A stretch of 64,000 nucleotides of DNA from Pirellula sp. (GTDB lineage Bacteria; Planctomycetota; Planctomycetia; Pirellulales; PNKZ01). Every line of letters begins with the position of its first letter. The first letter of the stretch is position 1. Shown here one piece after another: positions 5,739-39,014 of the stretch. Location: contig PNKZ01000001.1 of the NCBI GenBank assembly GCA_013822735.1, forward strand, positions 496,001 to 560,000, given 5' to 3'. The translations under genes were made by a program, and so were the position numbers. The notes under the pieces are model-generated. The model made no database searches, had not been told where the DNA came from, and saw only the letters and a program-made list of their open reading frames with translations.

Positions 5739-6627
5739 TATTTCGCCCCCGGTCGGTGACCGGGGGCGCCCGCCGTCGCCGACGGCGGGCTAAATAGTCG
5801 TTGCGCATGGTGCGCGTGTGCTCTCGGGAGAGTGGTGATTCGAATGCGTCCGTGGTGCAAGCGTACTCGATGGAAGTCACTCGGTAGTTGTGCGGTGGAT
5901 CGACGTTGTCTCAACGGTCCCTTGTGTCGCTTGCGGCGCGGGGGACTTTTTTTGCGCTCTGTTGATTTCGGTTGTCGGCGATGTTGAATTATTTCGACTC
6001 TATTTCGCCCCCGGTCGGCGACCGGGGGCGCCCGCCGTCGCCGACGGCGGGCTAAATAACTTACGGCGGGCTAAATAGTTGTTGCGCGTGGTGTGCGTGA
6101 GCGAGCGGTTCGAATGGTGATTCGATTGCGTCCTTCGTGAACGCGTGCTCGATTGACGTGACTCGCTGGTTGTGCGGTAGATCGGTTCAGTTTTCACGCT
6201 CCCTCGCGTCGCTGGCGGCGCGGGGGATTGTTTTGCGCTCTGTTGATTGCGGTTGTCGGCGATGTTGACTTATCTCGACTCTATTTCGCCCCCGGTCGGC
6301 GACCGGGGGCGCCCGCCGTCGCCGACGGCGGGCTAAATAGTCGTTGCGCATGGTGCGCGTGAGCGAGCGGTTCGAATGGTGATTCGAATCGTCCTTCGTG
6401 AACGCGTGCTCGATTGACGTGACTCGGTAGTTGTGCGGTCGTTCGACGTTGTCTTTACGGTCTCTCGCGTCTCTCGCGTCGCTTGTGTTGCGGGGAGTTG
6501 TGTTTGCGCTCTGTTGATTGCGCTTGTTGGCGATGTTGTCTTATTTCGACTCTATTTCGCCCCCGGTCGGTGACCGGGGGTGCCCGCCGTCGCCGACGGC
6601 GGGCTAAATACTTACGCGGGATAAATG
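5739..6627. repeat. Tandem array of four twin-hairpin REP elements
   Basis: Four nearly identical 58-59 bp elements lie at 5739-5797, 6001-6058, 6282-6340 and 6553-6610. Each has TATTTC, then a hairpin GCCCCCGGTCGGCGACCGGG, then a second hairpin GCCCGCCGTCGCCGACGGCG, then CTAAATA. Extra half-elements trail copies 2 and 4 (6060-6077 and 6611-6627). The roughly 210 bp between REPs is itself repeated (ggttcgaatggtgattcga, ctctgttgattgcggttgtc), so the whole is a degenerate tandem repeat of about 270 bp. It fills the gap between the ATPase and the RAYT gene. Short ORFs in it are not credible. Confidence 0.9.
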
Positions 6628-6729
6628 CGCTTGGCGGTGCAAAAATGGTTGACGTTCGGTTGAGCGCGTTTTAGTTTTGCGTCGTCTTAGACAACTGCAA
6701 TTTCTTTCCTTCACACGGAGTCGCGCATC

Positions 6730-7233
6730 GTGGGGCGGACGCTTGGGACGATGGTCACGATGACCACGTACGGCACTTGGTTGCGTGGTGATCGGCGCGG
6801 GTGGATTGACGACGGCAAGCTCATGCCGGCCGATCCCGAACTCGAAGCGGCCGATCGGCGGCGGATGAAGTTCGCTCCCTACTACTTGCCGCGCGAGCGA
6901 CTCCTGGAACTCGGCGACGCGCTCGGGCGCGGGCTCCTGCAAGAACTTCGCTTACCGATCTATGCGCTCACCATGCGCTCGTGTCATGTGCACGTGGTCG
7001 TCGCGGCGGTCCGGGTGCCGATCGCGGAGGTTGCGAAATGTGCAAAAGACAAAGTGCGCTACGCGCTCGGGGCGGAGCGGCCGATTTGGGGCGGCGACTA
7101 TGACAAACGGTTTTGCTTCGACTTGCCGTCGCTACGAAACCGGATTCGATACGTCGAGCGGCACAATGAGGAAGACGGATTGCCGGCGCGCCCCTGGGAG
7201 TTTGTGACGGTTCCGCGCGGGTTGGGGGAGTGA
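6730..7233 (+). CDS. REP-associated tyrosine transposase (RAYT, IS200-like)
   Basis: 167 residues from a GTG start at 6730, with CGGAG about 8 nt upstream; ATGs at 6751 and 6760 are alternatives. The HuH metal-binding motif is HVH at residues 86-88 in SCHVHVVV. The likely catalytic Tyr is Y141 in RYVERHN. The N-terminal TYGTWLRGDRRGW block is typical of the family. RAYTs are single-copy Y1 transposases that cut and mobilise REP hairpins. That matches the setting here: REPs sit on both sides, four upstream and one immediately downstream. The absence of insertion-sequence ends supports RAYT over a true IS200. Confidence 0.88.
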   Translation: MGRTLGTMVTMTTYGTWLRGDRRGWIDDGKLMPADPELEAADRRRMKFAPYYLPRERLLELGDALGRGLLQELRLPIYALTMRSCHVHVVVAAVRVPIAEVAKCAKDKVRYALGAERPIWGGDYDKRFCFDLPSLRNRIRYVERHNEEDGLPARPWEFVTVPRGLGE

Positions 7234-7285
7234 GTGGCGACGCGGAGCGTGCGGAGATGAAACGGATTCAAGCAGCGCTTGTACA

Positions 7286-7379
7286 TATTTCGCCCCCGGT
7301 CGGCGACCGGGGGCGCCCGCCGTCGCCGACGGCGGGCTAAATAAGCGGCGGGCTAAATAGCGGACGGCGGGTTAAATAG
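7286..7379. repeat. REP element plus two decayed half-repeats
   Basis: A full twin-hairpin element (7286-7343) is identical in plan to the upstream array. It is followed by two short half copies ending CTAAATAG and TTAAATAG (7344-7379). It sits between the RAYT stop and the stop codon of the convergent propeller gene, so it may also act as a bidirectional terminator. Confidence 0.88.
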
Positions 7380-17156: not shown

Positions 17157-17232
17157 TTATTTAGCTCGCCGTTATTTAGCCCGCTGTCGGCGACGGCGGG
17201 CGGCCCCCGGTCGCCGACCGGGGGCTAAATAG
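17157..17232. repeat. Dispersed REP element of the RAYT-associated family
   Basis: A half-repeat (ATTATTTAGCTCGCCG) is followed by a full element in inverted orientation (17173-17232): TATTTAGCCCGC, two hairpins, then GGGGGCTAAATAG. Both ends here carry the TTTAGC foot. It lies 10 kb from the RAYT gene, which shows that copies occur away from it. Confidence 0.85.
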
Positions 17233-19609: not shown

Positions 19610-19980
19610 GTAGGGAACGCCCTCCGTGGCGTTCCGTCTGCGTCTGCGAGGCGAGCGTCGAGCCGTCAGGCCGACGTGTCTTGGTGGGTGAAATTCCAAG
19701 GACCAAGCACCAAATTCCAAACAATGACCAAACTCGAATGACCCAATGTGCGCTGCATTGGATGCCGATTTCTGATTGCCGGCCGCATGCCGTTTCTCCC
19801 GGGGACGGCTGTCCCCGGGCTTTCGATGAGGGCGGCTCCGCACAATTGGTCAGGCCGCTTGCCCGGGGGCTTTTCCGCCGGTAAAACCAACGGTTCGACT
19901 CTCTGTAGGGAACGCGCTGTGTGGCGTTCCGTCCGCGTCGATTCCGTTTTCCGGAACGTCACAGAGGGCGTTCCCTACAG
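19610..19980. repeat. Composite repeat: GGAACGCC hairpins, GTCGGCC unit and ACCAAGC heptamers
   Basis: This explains most of the 417-bp gap. CTGTAGGGAACGCC with GGCGTTCC form a hairpin at 19610-19641. A CGAGCGTCGAGCCGTCAGGC unit lies near 19660-19675. A single-arm ACCAAGC/ACCAAAT/TCCAAAC heptamer array is at 19691-19748. A GGGGAC/GTCCCC palindrome lies near 19800-19817. Then comes a paired GGAACGC element with inverted ends (19902-19980). The same GGAACGCC pair recurs at 41995. Confidence 0.75.
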
Positions 19981-32549: not shown

Positions 32550-35500
32550 CTATTTCTTAACGTCCAACTCCACGAAGCCCGGCAGCGTTTTCGCCGTCGG
32601 GTCGGTCGGTGGTTTATCCAGCTTCAAAAACGCAAACAGATCGACGATCTCCTGCGGCTTGTATTGCGTTTCCACACCCTCGGGCATCAACGAAAGCTTG
32701 CTGGTTTCGATTTCGTCGATATTTGAGCGGGCGATCGTTTCCAGCTTGCCTCCCTGCAGCTTGAGCACCACGCGCGTCGGGCTGTCTTCCACGAGCAAGC
32801 CGGTGAGCACGCGCCCGTCGCCGGTCGAAACAATGCGCGGCTGATACGCCCCGCCGATCACGAGGCTCGGGTCAAAGATGTTCGAGAGCAGTTGCTCGAA
32901 GTTCGAGCGGCCGTTGACCGTGATATCCGGCCCGACTTCTTGGCCGACGCCGTGAATCTTATGGCACTGCCCGCAAAGCCGCCCAAACACTGCCTGCCCC
33001 GCCGCGGCGTCGCCATGCCCGTTCTTCACAAGCTCGCGCATCTGGGCAACGACCTGCTCCCGCTGCGGATTGCGATCGGTCCGGAGCTTGCCCCAGATCT
33101 CACCGACGCGCTTCGCCAAGCCTTGGTCGCCGCTCTTTAAGAGCTTGCGCACTTGGTTGACGTTCACGGCATCTTTGGAGACATTGCCCGCGGCAATCGC
33201 GTCGAGCAATTGATTGCTCCACGCGACGCGGCTCGACAACAGTTCTATCGCGGCCGGCTGCAATTCAGCTTCAAGTTTCGGATAAACCGCCAGTACGCGT
33301 GCCGCGACGGCATCGTCGGTCGATCGTGCTAGGGCATCGCAAATCTTGCGGCGCAGTTCGACGGGGGCCGATCTCGACGGTGTAAGCAACTGTTCGATCG
33401 CCGCCGGCAGTTCGGGATCGTTGAGCATGACCCAGGTTTCGAGCGCCGTAAGTGTGGGGGCTTTGTAGAACTGATGCGTCGGCGTGGGCAAGACCATGGC
33501 AAGCGCAGCAGAGCTGACTGTTTTCGCAGCCGGCTCGTAGCCCCAGAGCGCCAGAAGTTGGGCCGAGGTCAGTCCGCGATCGGCGTCGAAATACTTTTGC
33601 AGCTTACTCTCGAGTTTGGAGCGGAGCATGGCTTGCTGCGTCGAAGAAAGTTCTCCGCTACGCCACTTGGCCGCCACAAGCTCGACTGCCGGGACCAACT
33701 GATTGCGGTCGAGATGTTCCGCGATGAACGAGGCCAACGCCGCCGTTCCCTCCTCGCGCGTCAGTTGCCAGTCGACCAACCGCTTGCGAATATCGTCCAT
33801 GCCGATGAACCTGGTGTCGCCGCTGAACATCAGCTTCGGCAAGTCTTTTTCGACTCGTTCCAGTCGGGGCAGGAGGTTTTGCCAAACGATCTTCGGAATC
33901 AGTTTGTCGTCGGTCTTGTCGAAACTCTCCTTGTATAACGTCAACACATGATGAAGCGGTGCGACGAACTGATCGCCGTAGATCTTCGGAACGGCGATCA
34001 CGTTCTGCAACAGCACCGCAGGTTCCATTTCCTGTAGCGCGAAGGACGCTAAATAGCTATACATGTCAGGCGTCATGTGCCGATCGCCGGCAGCACGGAG
34101 AAGCCAAGCTCGCGCCGACCAGTCTTGCGCATGCGCCAGTAGCGATCGGAAATCATCTTCGTCAAGCGTCGTTCCGCTCAACAACGCCCAGAGAGCATGT
34201 TGGCGTTGGTGCCGCGGCGACTTTCTACCTGATCCGGCTGCGGCGGACTTTAACCTCGCCTTCGTAGCCGGATTGCTCCGCTCGGCCAACAATCGCTGCG
34301 CTTGCTCGCGGTAAAAAATGTTCGGGCTCGCCAGCCGTTCGATCAGTTGATCGTCGGTCTCGTTCGCCAGGTCGAACTTCGGCGCCCGTGGGGTTTCTTG
34401 ATAGCGCACGCGGTAGAGCCGGCCCTTCGCGCGGTCGACTCCCTGCGGGTCGGCATTGGCGTCTTGGTAGCAGTGGTAACGGTCGTACCAATCGAGAATG
34501 TAAAGGCAGCCGTCGGGGCCGACCTTCTGCACGACCGGCATGAACCAGACGTCGTTGGCCGTCAGGAAGTCGTCGTGCTTGATCCCTTTGTACGTGGCGC
34601 CATGGCGCTCGAGCCCGTCGACGTTGATGCAGCCGCCGTGGATATTGCCCATGTAAAGTTTCTTGCGAAACTCCTGGGGGTAGGCGTCGCTATCGAACCA
34701 AGTGATGCCGCAGTAGGCGGCCATCTGATGTTTGTAGTCGACGATCGATTCCAGCTTCCACGTGTGCGGCGGATACGGTCCGCCCTGGCGATGGTAATAG
34801 CCGGTCTCTACAAGATGCCACAGGTGATCGATCACGCAGGCGCTAATGAACGCGTCGCCGTTATCGTTGAACGCGATCCCCCAAGGGTTGCTCGTCCCTT
34901 CGCAGAACACTTGGAACTCGCGCGTGCGCGGGTGGATGCGGAACATCGCGCAATTGATCTTCCAGCCGGGATGCTTTTCCTTTTCCGCCGCCGCGAGGAA
35001 CGTGTTGTCCTTGCCGTACCGCACGTGGCAATTGTTGAACACGCCGTTGAGCCCGTAGAGCCAGCCGTCGGGTCCCCAAGTCAAAGAGTTCGGCAGTTCG
35101 TGCGTGTCTTCGCGACCAAAGCCGGTGAGCACTTGCTGCGCCGGGCCGTCGGCGCGGCCGTCTCGGTCTGCATCCGGGTAGAAGAGAATGTCCGGCGCAT
35201 TGGCGACCCAGACGCCGCCCGCCCCGACGGCGATACCGCTGGGGATATTGAGGCCTTCGGCGAAGATTGAAACCTTCTCGGCCGAGCCGTCGCCGTCGGC
35301 ATCTTCGAGAATTTTCACACGATCGCGGCCCGGGCCGGGCTCGCGGCGCGGATACTCGAAGCTTTCGGTGATCCAGATCCGCCCACGCTCGTCGAACGTC
35401 ATCGCCACCGGGTTCATTACATCCGGCTCAGCCGCCACGAGCTCGACGGTGAAGCCGGCGGGTACCGTCATTTTCTTGATCGCGTCGGCGGGAGAGAGCG

Positions 35501-35654
35501 CCGGCGTCGGCGGCTTCGTTTGCTTGCGAGGAATAAAGTCCGCACCTGTCGCGACAGGTGCGGAAATGAACCAATGACCAAGCACCAAATTCCAGACAAG
35601 GAAACAATGACCTAAGGCCAATAAACAGCGTCGCAGCGCCAGGTATTTGATCAT
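32550..35654 (-). CDS. PVC-type heme-binding CxxCH protein (1)
   Basis: 1034 residues from the ATG at 35654. Planctomycete family of giant exported proteins: an N-terminal six-bladed propeller (VPAGFTVELVAAEPDVMNPV, DADGDGSAEKVSIFAEGL), a HEAT-like helical middle, and a C-terminal cytochrome c-like domain with CGQCH and GPDITVNGRSNFEQLLSNIF. Thought to be periplasmic redox enzymes acting on carbohydrates, unproven. The signal sequence (MIKYLALRRCLLALGHCFLV followed by WNLVLGHWFIS) is encoded by a heptamer repeat and a palindrome (35539-35622). Upstream starts at 35693 and 35762 are possible. A paralogue lies 132 bp upstream. Confidence 0.85.
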   Translation of the reverse strand: MIKYLALRRCLLALGHCFLVWNLVLGHWFISAPVATGADFIPRKQTKPPTPALSPADAIKKMTVPAGFTVELVAAEPDVMNPVAMTFDERGRIWITESFEYPRREPGPGRDRVKILEDADGDGSAEKVSIFAEGLNIPSGIAVGAGGVWVANAPDILFYPDADRDGRADGPAQQVLTGFGREDTHELPNSLTWGPDGWLYGLNGVFNNCHVRYGKDNTFLAAAEKEKHPGWKINCAMFRIHPRTREFQVFCEGTSNPWGIAFNDNGDAFISACVIDHLWHLVETGYYHRQGGPYPPHTWKLESIVDYKHQMAAYCGITWFDSDAYPQEFRKKLYMGNIHGGCINVDGLERHGATYKGIKHDDFLTANDVWFMPVVQKVGPDGCLYILDWYDRYHCYQDANADPQGVDRAKGRLYRVRYQETPRAPKFDLANETDDQLIERLASPNIFYREQAQRLLAERSNPATKARLKSAAAGSGRKSPRHQRQHALWALLSGTTLDEDDFRSLLAHAQDWSARAWLLRAAGDRHMTPDMYSYLASFALQEMEPAVLLQNVIAVPKIYGDQFVAPLHHVLTLYKESFDKTDDKLIPKIVWQNLLPRLERVEKDLPKLMFSGDTRFIGMDDIRKRLVDWQLTREEGTAALASFIAEHLDRNQLVPAVELVAAKWRSGELSSTQQAMLRSKLESKLQKYFDADRGLTSAQLLALWGYEPAAKTVSSAALAMVLPTPTHQFYKAPTLTALETWVMLNDPELPAAIEQLLTPSRSAPVELRRKICDALARSTDDAVAARVLAVYPKLEAELQPAAIELLSSRVAWSNQLLDAIAAGNVSKDAVNVNQVRKLLKSGDQGLAKRVGEIWGKLRTDRNPQREQVVAQMRELVKNGHGDAAAGQAVFGRLCGQCHKIHGVGQEVGPDITVNGRSNFEQLLSNIFDPSLVIGGAYQPRIVSTGDGRVLTGLLVEDSPTRVVLKLQGGKLETIARSNIDEIETSKLSLMPEGVETQYKPQEIVDLFAFLKLDKPPTDPTAKTLPGFVELDVKK

Positions 35655-35702
35655 TGCCGTTTGTTTATTGTTTGGAATTTGGTGCTTGGTCATTGGAATT
35701 TG
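35539..35702. repeat. ACCAAGC heptamer element and palindrome, partly coding
   Basis: A perfect 24-bp palindrome (CCGCACCTGTCG and its complement, 35541-35564) is followed by arm 35565-35622 (ACCAAGC, ACCAAAT, TCCAGAC) and complementary arm 35659-35701 (TTTGGAA, TTTGGTG, CTTGGTC). The gene start at 35654 sits in the loop, so the left arm and palindrome encode the signal peptide region of the cytochrome-like protein. Confidence 0.8.
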
Positions 35703-35759
35703 CCGCGTCCAAAGTCCCCTCGCTTGCGCGTCGGGGCTAGTGTGATAGGGGCGCGCTCT

Positions 35760-35791
35760 CACTAGCTACCTACTACTAGTGCCTAGCTACG
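35760..35791. repeat. Single-arm TAGCTAG-family heptamers over a stop codon
   Basis: CTAGCTA, CCTACTA, CTAGTGC, CTAGCTA in 7-bp steps. The stop codon of the second PVC-type gene (minus strand, 35787-35789) lies in the array. Confidence 0.65.
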
Positions 35792-38700
35792 GCTTCAGCG
35801 TCATCAAATACGCCAGCAAGTCGGCGGCGTCTTGGGCCGTGACTTCTTTCAGCACCAGTTCCGGCATCATGCTCTTGGGGCTCGGCGTGATCGATTCGAC
35901 CGATTTCGCGGGAAGCCGAATCGTCTTGTCTTCCGCCGTGCGAATGATCACCACCTTGTCGGTCTTTTCGACGAAGCCGGTGAAGGCGAGGCCGTCGTCC
36001 GTTTCGACGACGCTCGTCACGTACTCGTGCGAAATGGCCTTCGACGGATCCATGATCGTTTCGAGCAGCGCCGCCTTCTCGTACTTCTTGCCGATCGCAG
36101 TGAGGTCGGGCCCCAGCTTTTTCCCGAAGCCGCGGATGGCGTGGCACCCTTTGCAATTGGCGGCCGAGCTTTGATGAAAGATTTGCTCGCCCCGCTTCTC
36201 ATCGCCCGTGAGCTTGAGAATGTCTTCGGCCTTCATCGCCGCGCCGAGCCGTTGCGGCCGTTCGCTTTCCGGAACGAACTTCTCGAAGAGAATCCGCACA
36301 TTGGCGTCGGGATGCCGCACCGCTTTGCTCACGGCGAGTTTCGCCGTCGCGTCGTCGAGCTCTTTCGCATCGATCCACTTGAGCAGCGCCAGCGCTCCGC
36401 CGGTGGTTTGCACCATGTGATCGACGACGCTCGCGGCAGCCTTGGCATCGGCCCCTTTCGTGACGAGCGATTTCACGGCGGCAAATTGCCCCATGTCGAC
36501 CAGCGCCGCCGCGGCTTTTTTGCGGAGCCCGGCATCGTCGGACTTCAGAAGCTTCGCCAGGGCCTCGCCCGCTCCGGCCGGTCGAGTTTGCACGGCCACG
36601 GCCAGCGCTTGATCGCGCACCGCGGCGGCCGTGTCGTTTGCCGTGGCCAGCGCGAGCACCTCGGGGCCGAGTTCGGAAAGGCCGGCGGCCGCCGCCAGCT
36701 TCAGCGCCGCCGTTTGGTAGGCCGGATCACCGGCGAGCACCTTTGCCAAAGCCGCGAGGCCCGCACGGTTGTCCTTGGCATTGTCGACCTTTACTTGCGT
36801 CCAGGCGCTCACCGAAGCATCGGCATCACCGACGTAGCCCGACCAGAGGCCGGCCGGCGCGCAGTTGAACGTAAGCCATTCAATGGCCCGCGCACGTTCG
36901 GCGGCGCTAGGCGAAGCGACGTCCGAGGCGAATGCCAGCATCGCGCGAAACGCCTTAGGATGCAGCGTCACACCCAGTCGATCGATCATTCCCTTGCGCG
37001 CGGGGGCATCCGGCGACGCCAGCGAGAATCCGGCGATGTATCCTTGTACGGCTTCGTCGAGATCGCTTGCAAGATACGGTAGTAGGTCGAACGTTTCGGC
37101 GCGGCGCTCTTTGACTGCGAGCAGGCCCTTTTCAATCGTTGCCTTGCGGTCGCGCGCCGCGATGTTCACCGCTTCCAGCGCGTAGCGATCGTGCTGCGGC
37201 AGACCGGCGGCCAGCGACACTACGGCGGCGTCGGCTTCCGGCCCGGTGCGTTTGGCTTCGAAGAGCAACAGTTCGCGCCAGGTCTCCGGCGCGAGCTTCG
37301 TGTCGCCGGCCAACTTCGTCAGTGCGGCGGCGATGGTCGAGTCGTCTTGGTGGCGACGCAAAATGCGCACGGCTAGCGATTGTGTTGCCGGGTCGCCTGA
37401 AGCGAGTTGTTCGACGACTTCGTCACGAGCTGCACCGCCGATACGATCGAGCACCCAGTAGGCCCTAGCCGCAAAGTTCGGATCGGTCGCGCCTTTCGTG
37501 AGTTCGATCAGGGCCGTGACGGCCGCTTCTCCTTCGGCCAGCAGCTTCTCGCGGGCCAAGAACTGCGTCGCCAAGTTCGGGCTCTTCAAGCCTTCGATCG
37601 CTTCCGCGATCGAAGCATACGGGCCCGCCTTGCCGACCCGCTCGAGCTTCTTATCCTTCGGCGTCAGGCGGAAGATGCGTCCTTGGTCGGGGTTGTTGTA
37701 GGCGTGGCCGCCGACGCCGCCGTCGTACCAGTCGGCGATGTAGAGGCTACCGTCCGGCGCGGTGCAGATATCGTCGGGGCGGAAGTAGTTGTCGTCGGCG
37801 CTAGTGATGAGCGTCTCCTGCTTTCCCGTGAATCCCGCGCCGGCCTTCTCATGCGGATAGGCACGCACTTCGCGCGGACCGGCGTCGCAATGGAGCGGCA
37901 TGTTTTTCAAGCTCGGGATCGCGTCTCCTTCGTAGTAGCACATGCCGCACGGGCTGCCGAAGCCGGTGACGATGGTGCTCGGCACGAAGCCGGGGATCGC
38001 CCCGCGGAAATGCCAGGTGTCGCCGTAAGGCGTGCCCGGCGGAAATTTCGGACCCGGCCGCTTGTACCATCCATAGTTGCCCCCTTCGAGAATCCAGCAG
38101 ATGCGCACGCTGAAGTTGCCGTCGTTGTCGTTGTCGCTACAGAAGGCTTCGCCAAAGCTGCTCACCGCGATTTCGTACGGGTTGCGAAAGTTCGTCGCGA
38201 CGTTTTCGAGCTTCGTGCCGTCGAGCTCGCCGCGGATCATACCGCCTGCCGGAAATGAGATTTTGGAGCCGTCCGTACCGGCGACGTCGTAGCCGGCGTC
38301 GCCGTGCGCCATCCACCATTTGTGATCAGGCCCGAGCACGAGCGAGTGCGCGCCGTGGTCGTGGTTTTGGCCGCCGAAGCCGGTGAGAATCTTCTTGGCG
38401 GGGCCGTCGGCTTTGAGGTCGCCGTTCTTATCTTCGTAGACCCAAAGGTCGGGGCTTGTGGCGACATAGACTTTGTCGCCGGCGACGCAGATGCTCATCG
38501 GCGCAAAGACATCCTCGGCGAACACCGTAACTTTGTCGGCGCGGCCGTCGCCGTCGGTGTCTTCGAGCACTTTGATCTTGTCGGCCGGCGGGTTCTTCGC
38601 GGCGCGGCGGTACCATTGGATTTCGGCGACCCAAACGCGGCCGTGCGTGTCGATGTCGATCGCCGCCGGGTTGGTGATCAGCGGCTCGGAGGCGAAGAGC

Positions 38701-38843
38701 TTGAGCTCCATGCCGTCGGGCACGGTGAGCGATTTGAGTTCTTCCTCGGGCGATTTTTGAGCGGCGGCCGGCATAGCGGCGAACAGCGGAAGAATCAGAC
38801 CGAAAGCAAGCGCGGCGAGCAGGGCGGGGCGAAAGCAAGGCAT
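35787..38843 (-). CDS. PVC-type heme-binding CxxCH protein (2)
   Basis: 1018 residues from the ATG at 38843, which gives a clean signal peptide (MPCFRPALLAALAFGLILPL then PAAAQ). A propeller domain (VPDGMELKLFASEPLITNPA, DTDGDGRADKVTVFAEDV) is followed by a long helical-repeat region (about 440-880). The C-terminal heme domain has ANCKGCHAIRGFGKKLGPDL. Same architecture as the neighbour at 32550 but only distantly similar outside the key motifs, so an old duplication or two substrate versions. The longer frame to 38972 lacks a sensible N-terminus. Confidence 0.87.
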   Translation of the reverse strand: MPCFRPALLAALAFGLILPLFAAMPAAAQKSPEEELKSLTVPDGMELKLFASEPLITNPAAIDIDTHGRVWVAEIQWYRRAAKNPPADKIKVLEDTDGDGRADKVTVFAEDVFAPMSICVAGDKVYVATSPDLWVYEDKNGDLKADGPAKKILTGFGGQNHDHGAHSLVLGPDHKWWMAHGDAGYDVAGTDGSKISFPAGGMIRGELDGTKLENVATNFRNPYEIAVSSFGEAFCSDNDNDGNFSVRICWILEGGNYGWYKRPGPKFPPGTPYGDTWHFRGAIPGFVPSTIVTGFGSPCGMCYYEGDAIPSLKNMPLHCDAGPREVRAYPHEKAGAGFTGKQETLITSADDNYFRPDDICTAPDGSLYIADWYDGGVGGHAYNNPDQGRIFRLTPKDKKLERVGKAGPYASIAEAIEGLKSPNLATQFLAREKLLAEGEAAVTALIELTKGATDPNFAARAYWVLDRIGGAARDEVVEQLASGDPATQSLAVRILRRHQDDSTIAAALTKLAGDTKLAPETWRELLLFEAKRTGPEADAAVVSLAAGLPQHDRYALEAVNIAARDRKATIEKGLLAVKERRAETFDLLPYLASDLDEAVQGYIAGFSLASPDAPARKGMIDRLGVTLHPKAFRAMLAFASDVASPSAAERARAIEWLTFNCAPAGLWSGYVGDADASVSAWTQVKVDNAKDNRAGLAALAKVLAGDPAYQTAALKLAAAAGLSELGPEVLALATANDTAAAVRDQALAVAVQTRPAGAGEALAKLLKSDDAGLRKKAAAALVDMGQFAAVKSLVTKGADAKAAASVVDHMVQTTGGALALLKWIDAKELDDATAKLAVSKAVRHPDANVRILFEKFVPESERPQRLGAAMKAEDILKLTGDEKRGEQIFHQSSAANCKGCHAIRGFGKKLGPDLTAIGKKYEKAALLETIMDPSKAISHEYVTSVVETDDGLAFTGFVEKTDKVVIIRTAEDKTIRLPAKSVESITPSPKSMMPELVLKEVTAQDAADLLAYLMTLKP

Positions 38844-39014
38844 GGCGGACAACTTCCGTAGGTGGGCGAAATAGTCAACGGCCGGCGAGTAACCGCACAT
38901 TCTAACTCCCCGCGCCGGCGGCCCGCAATTGTCGACCGCCCCGCGGCGCATTATGTTCACCGGGTATCGCATCCTGCTCGCCGCCCGCCGGTCCCCGTTT
39001 ATGGGAGAACTGAA

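Follow-up and report, generated by a model that had tools for sequence, protein, structure and literature searches.

A palindromic heptamer repeat as the putative signal peptide of a PVC-type cytochrome gene in Pirellula sp.

Features of the PVC locus

The window, i.e., the whole 64,000-nt stretch of Pirellula sp. DNA analysed here, carries on its minus strand a gene encoding a PVC-type CxxCH protein whose 5' end runs through a palindromic repeat element. The features of this locus are listed below.

32550-35762, minus strand: ORF of the PVC-type CxxCH protein, open through the whole repeat element and the 26-nt palindrome
32550-35540, minus strand: mature part, PVC-type heme-binding CxxCH protein, starting with DFIPRKQTKPP
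35539-35564, no strand assigned: perfect palindrome of 26 nt, unique, encoding the c-region SAPVATGA
35541-35654, minus strand: putative signal peptide MIKYLALRRCLLALGHCFLVWNLVLGHWFISAPVATGA, 38 codons from ATG 35654, with the probable cleavage position taken from the orthologue alignment
35571-35696, minus strand: imperfect-palindrome repeat element, 126 bp
35571-35599, minus strand: 3' arm in the gene's reading direction, TTGGNNN heptamers, encoding LVWNLVLGHW, the second half of the h-region
35668-35696, minus strand: 5' arm in the gene's reading direction, CCAANNN heptamers, polar, with an ATG at 35691-35693 (MTKHQIPN)
35787-38972, minus strand: paralogous PVC CxxCH protein, upstream neighbour

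Counted from ATG 35654, the PVC protein is 1034 aa long. It was identified as a PVC-type heme-binding protein by TIGR02604 (4.5e-97, 325.7 bits against a cut-off of 122.2) and TIGR02603 (5.3e-33, 113.9 bits against a cut-off of 68.15), and DUF7133 was also assigned to it. All 1034 codons are intact and codon usage is normal according to a home-made codon score. The same score, applied to fetched loci rather than as a full gene annotation, provided the gene models beyond homologous genes. The upstream neighbour gene is the same in the genome of the window (G000) and in two others of the genus, G005 and G006, indicating that the PVC locus is orthologous among them. The arms, the palindrome and the open frame that the original prediction had read as the signal peptide of this protein were all recovered.

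Signal peptide and translation start

The peptide MIKYLALRRCLLALGHCFLVWNLVLGHWFISAPVATGA has the general layout of a Sec signal peptide, with a net charge of +3 ahead of a 12-residue hydrophobic segment (mean KD 2.04). By inspection, small residues precede the mature start (ATGA before D, with T at -3 and A at -1), and this site aligns with ASAA before E in G005 and AAAA before E in G004. The H and N in the core are unusual residues for an h-region. At the level of sequence, a PVC signal peptide built from repeat DNA is supported; it would presumably start at the ATG chosen here, be recognised by Sec, be cleaved near GA/D and thereby export the PVC protein.

A second in-frame ATG is located at 35693 (MTKHQIP), inside the 5' arm. 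The start codon had been placed in the hairpin loop; ATG 35654 does sit between the arms, but the predicted fold places it within the base-paired upper stem. As RNA, the element is predicted to form an extended and very stable hairpin (-78.6 kcal/mol, z -8.2), which would be expected to impede initiation at both internal ATGs. A leaderless start, or initiation upstream of the hairpin at GTG 35762, is possible. The first in-frame start codon past the element lies 19 codons into the coding region, beyond FIPRKQTKPP. A start downstream of the element, which would have overturned the original prediction, is thus excluded, because the conserved mature sequence would be lost.

Repeat family and adjacent palindrome

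The two arms of the element are 29 nt each and 97% complementary. The arm was predicted to belong to a repeat family, and the counts bear this out, with 76 matches in G000 at ≤2 mismatches, whereas the reversed control gave 6. BLAST returned 102 arm matches, both strands and separate pieces counted, and at least 34 two-armed elements with a mode length of 120 bp were identified. Being short, with terminal inverted repeats and many dispersed copies, the element fits the description of a MITE. The 26-nt palindrome, which had also been taken for repeat DNA, is found only once in the genome, even with 3 mismatches allowed, and was rejected as a member of the family. Most copies in G000 are intergenic and frequently close to the 3' end of a gene; at many loci, the gene that follows carries an ATG of its own beyond the element. 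Within the genus, arms are also in excess in G005 (35 against 2 in the control) and G004 (8 against 0) and show no excess in G006 (1 against 2).

No Rfam covariance model matched the element at E≤1. Similar to REP/REPIN sequences, these are short inverted-repeat intergenic elements with tens of copies per genome. They differ in that the arms are heptamer arrays and in that no arm flanks any examined Y1 transposase locus: Y1_Tnp genes are present, but at the 8 loci inspected the flanks of up to 1.5 kb contained no arm, on which ground a REPIN with a RAYT partner was rejected. Among the matches listed, the exact 19-mer TTTGGAATTTGGTGCTTGG occurs in genomes labelled Aminicenantes, Saprospiraceae, Balneolaceae, Acidobacteria, Deltaproteobacteria, Omnitrophota, Patescibacteria and others. 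It also occurs on a contig labelled as a Thermoplasmata archaeon (L184).

Composite intergenic palindromes are elements nested with other hairpin families, and many copies lie in or beside the families GGCGTTCCG...CGGAACGCC and GCCGACGTGTC...GACACGTCGGC (flanks, L009-L041). Elsewhere in the window, a single repeat arm lies between two genes (19696-19721). Two further repeated palindromes, the GCCCCCGGTCGGCGACCGGGGGC and GCCCGCCGTCGCCGACGGCGGGC hairpins (5744-7337 and 17203-17225), are often paired, with five clustered sites and one apart.

Heptamer periodicity

The TTGG motifs in the arms are mostly spaced by 7, 14 and 21 nt (counts of 180, 118 and 57; the next value is 8). As 7 is not divisible by 3, every frame of such a tandem array encodes the same cyclic, L/V/I/G/W-rich heptapeptide. 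For example, (TTGGTCA)n gives WSLVIGH and (TTGGTGC)n gives WCLVLGA, while the opposite strands give PMTNDQ followed by a stop, or APSTKHQ. The real arms have mean KD values of +1.9, +1.1 and +0.9, depending on the frame, compared with -0.6 for random genome DNA. The hydrophobicity had been attributed to one lucky frame, an explanation that does not hold for an array hydrophobic in all three. On the reverse strand, the mean KD of the arms is -1.3 to -1.7, and 60% of arms contain an ATG in one frame. Because the arms are hydrophobic on one strand and polar on the other, a heptamer inverted repeat reads as polar and then hydrophobic from either side; in 44 of 68 element orientations, reading from an ATG continues without a stop through the distal arm.

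PVC orthologues in relatives

In G000, the sequence FIPRKQTKPP comes straight after the element; in G004, it is preceded by a normal signal peptide, MPANIAPPPTFRRALALGYASLLGLGLGLMPSPAAAA followed by EE. Slightly diverged mature starts were found in G006 (VIPHRQTKPP) and G003 (FIPRRQSKPP), and the corresponding sequence in the more distant G002 is FIPRRQEVMP. The PVC orthologues of G004, G006, G003 and G002 all have ordinary N-termini without the repeat, and these homologues have unrelated signal peptides. The G005 orthologue MREFSVARSFLVWNLVLGPWLFACHASAAEPFIPRKQ, from the same genus and with 69.5% identity, uses one arm of the repeat as its hydrophobic core. Its signal peptide is MREFSVARSFLVWNLVLGPWLFACHASAA followed by EP, with a good cleavage site; the core DNA TTTGGAATTTGGTGCTTGGTCCTTGG is the arm with one mismatch, and the hairpin is gone (z -0.6). 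The same peptide is thus accompanied by the same repeat DNA in G005. Although the genomes compared within the genus are fragmented assemblies, the fusions are found in separate ones.

The arm-to-mature-start spacing is equal in G000 and G005, gapless, with 11 codons and in the same frame. Four-fold sites of the two genes are 0.56 identical, i.e., near saturation, so the shared arm DNA points either to DNA-level upkeep of the copies or to two insertions at the same spot. The second option, a variant of the preferred reading set out below, appears rather unlikely. It would account for the identity of TGGAATTTGGTGCTTGG in G000 and G005 despite the near-saturated four-fold sites, and for the repeat-free PVC gene of G004 in a G000/G004/G005 clade whose internal branching is not settled; the identical frame and gapless spacing argue against it. 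G004 and G005 also share an intergenic element at an orthologous position (L083, L209), ahead of the same gene (MPHIVVQVKTEP...), and non-coding copies are therefore inherited as well. This persistence likewise speaks against two insertions and makes inheritance with DNA-level upkeep plausible.

Recurrence in other genes and phyla

All element copies fetched from the genus were surveyed for genes without a plausible start between the arm and the coding region. Two genes have this arrangement, the PVC gene (G000 and G005) and an alpha/beta-hydrolase gene with Peptidase_S9/Abhydrolase domains (G000, G004 and G005). The hydrolase reads the other good frame of the arm (LFGIWCLVLG) than the PVC gene does, and its repeat-derived h-regions are FLGIWCLVIG in G000, LLGIWCLVLG in G005 and LFGIWCLVLG in G004; the G006 hydrolase has the native signal MIRYLTFVALLLTLTASLAAAD. 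In G000, the only alternative starts are TTG/GTG codons within a second partial arm; starting further downstream would truncate WNGLERLDF in the hydrolase genes and leave no export signal. The mature parts of the hydrolase trio are 90-94% identical in amino acids against 54-71% at four-fold sites, indicating purifying selection. The three hydrolase elements also fold stably as RNA. A sulfatase in G000 is a partial case, in which an element fragment gives the start and the n-region (MPVRGILVGHWSF...); its counterparts in G005, G004 and G003 have native signals. Use of the repeat as a signal peptide is rare in G000: the copies examined yielded two clear cases and one partial one.

The repeat is used likewise in other genes and phyla. 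Outside the genus, it was found in an SLT lytic transglycosylase of a deltaproteobacterial MAG (L176), a BatD of an Omnitrophota MAG (L179) and a PD40 protein of the planctomycete G134, with a weaker case in G277. The L176 and L179 cases emerged when all frames containing an arm were listed for the pattern loci; the queries that retrieved G134 and G277 had an added signal-peptide-like tail and were hence biased towards such cases. The L176, L179 and G134 cases are independent of those in the genus. Six further candidates (L120, L103, L110, L136, L146 and L151) were rejected as fusions because a start of their own follows the arm. Many long open frames crossing an arm (e.g., L009 and L014) were likewise left out of the count, being of antisense type or having a separate ATG beyond the arm. 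The h-region hydropathy of the fused signals, 1.6-2.7, falls within the range of native orthologues, 1.6-2.9.

Origin of the signal peptide

The most convincing explanation, and a highly probable one, is that a palindromic element at the start of the gene for an exported PVC protein took over the role of the native Sec signal, i.e., an exaptation. A MITE-like copy would have come to lie in the 5' end of the PVC cytochrome gene, presumably by insertion, and its reading frame would have replaced the native signal peptide. The distal TTGGNNN arm, hydrophobic whatever the frame, would become the h-region. The polar proximal arm, often with an ATG, together with an interior that often codes for Arg or Lys, would supply the start and n-region, and the palindromic structure would give this order in both orientations. 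Sequence comparison establishes that the signal region derives from the repeat, that the frame is open, that the mature start is conserved, that relatives have native signals and that the phenomenon recurs.

It is very improbable that the insertion broke the G000 gene, turning it into a recent pseudogene whose signal peptide no longer works. Among the PVC orthologues only G000 carries the full element and hairpin, and its core residues are unusual; against this stand the intact frame with normal codon usage, the arm-derived core and good cleavage site in G005, and the hydrolase, fused likewise in three species and under purifying selection. Slightly less probable still is that the element is an untranslated upstream hairpin with a downstream start and the signal peptide an ORF-calling artefact, since, although strong hairpins and the mostly intergenic copies followed by genes with their own ATG would suit it, the PVC and hydrolase genes have no plausible start on the stretch from the element to the conserved mature sequence, and the next start deletes FIPRKQTKPP or cuts WNGLERLDF, with loss of the export signal.

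Under the exaptation reading, the repeat appears, where compared, to replace signals on proteins that were already exported, and not to bring export to new proteins. The comparison covers three families (PVC, hydrolase and sulfatase), and the unfused orthologues in all three have native signal peptides. The original idea of spreading export signals is thus not borne out. A wider reading, held tentatively and with doubt slightly prevailing, is that TTGG-heptamer palindromes may be a general frame- and orientation-independent reservoir of signal peptides, repeatedly replacing native signals across unrelated phyla.

Comparison with known systems and significance

In Enterobacteria, the MITEs YPAL/RU-2 and ERIC/RU-1 are fused in frame to genes. 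The predicted signal peptide of YPO1552 of Yersinia derives partly from RU-2, with unrelated signal peptides in homologues elsewhere, and one frame of ERIC is hydrophobic (Delihas, 2007; PMC2759123, PMC2229807). As with YPAL/ERIC, small palindromic repeats are fused in frame here and a signal peptide comes from the repeat. However, the YPAL/ERIC fusions mostly concern small or lineage-specific ORFs, with one main signal-peptide example and a different repeat sequence, whereas the present ones concern conserved large exported enzymes of several gene families, with orthologous fusions in up to three species, in several phyla and on a frame-independent heptamer basis. Rickettsia palindromic elements (RPEs), a classic example of palindromes read in frame and about 150 bp long, are reported to be inserted within many metabolic protein genes, each coding for a conserved peptide (PMC10969869). 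The present element is likewise a palindrome read in frame inside protein genes; unlike RPEs, it is N-terminal and acts as a putative targeting signal. Signal peptides from MITEs are already known from Yersinia, while reports of this arm DNA, its peptide strings or the heptamer principle were not found in the open-access literature.

Signal peptides evolve fast, but one can seldom trace where a replacement sequence came from. In the present case, the donor DNA is identifiable, the native signals are visible in relatives and the fusion can be seen alongside them. The 7-nt period accounts, as a tendency, for a start, a polar stretch and a hydrophobic core in any frame and either orientation.
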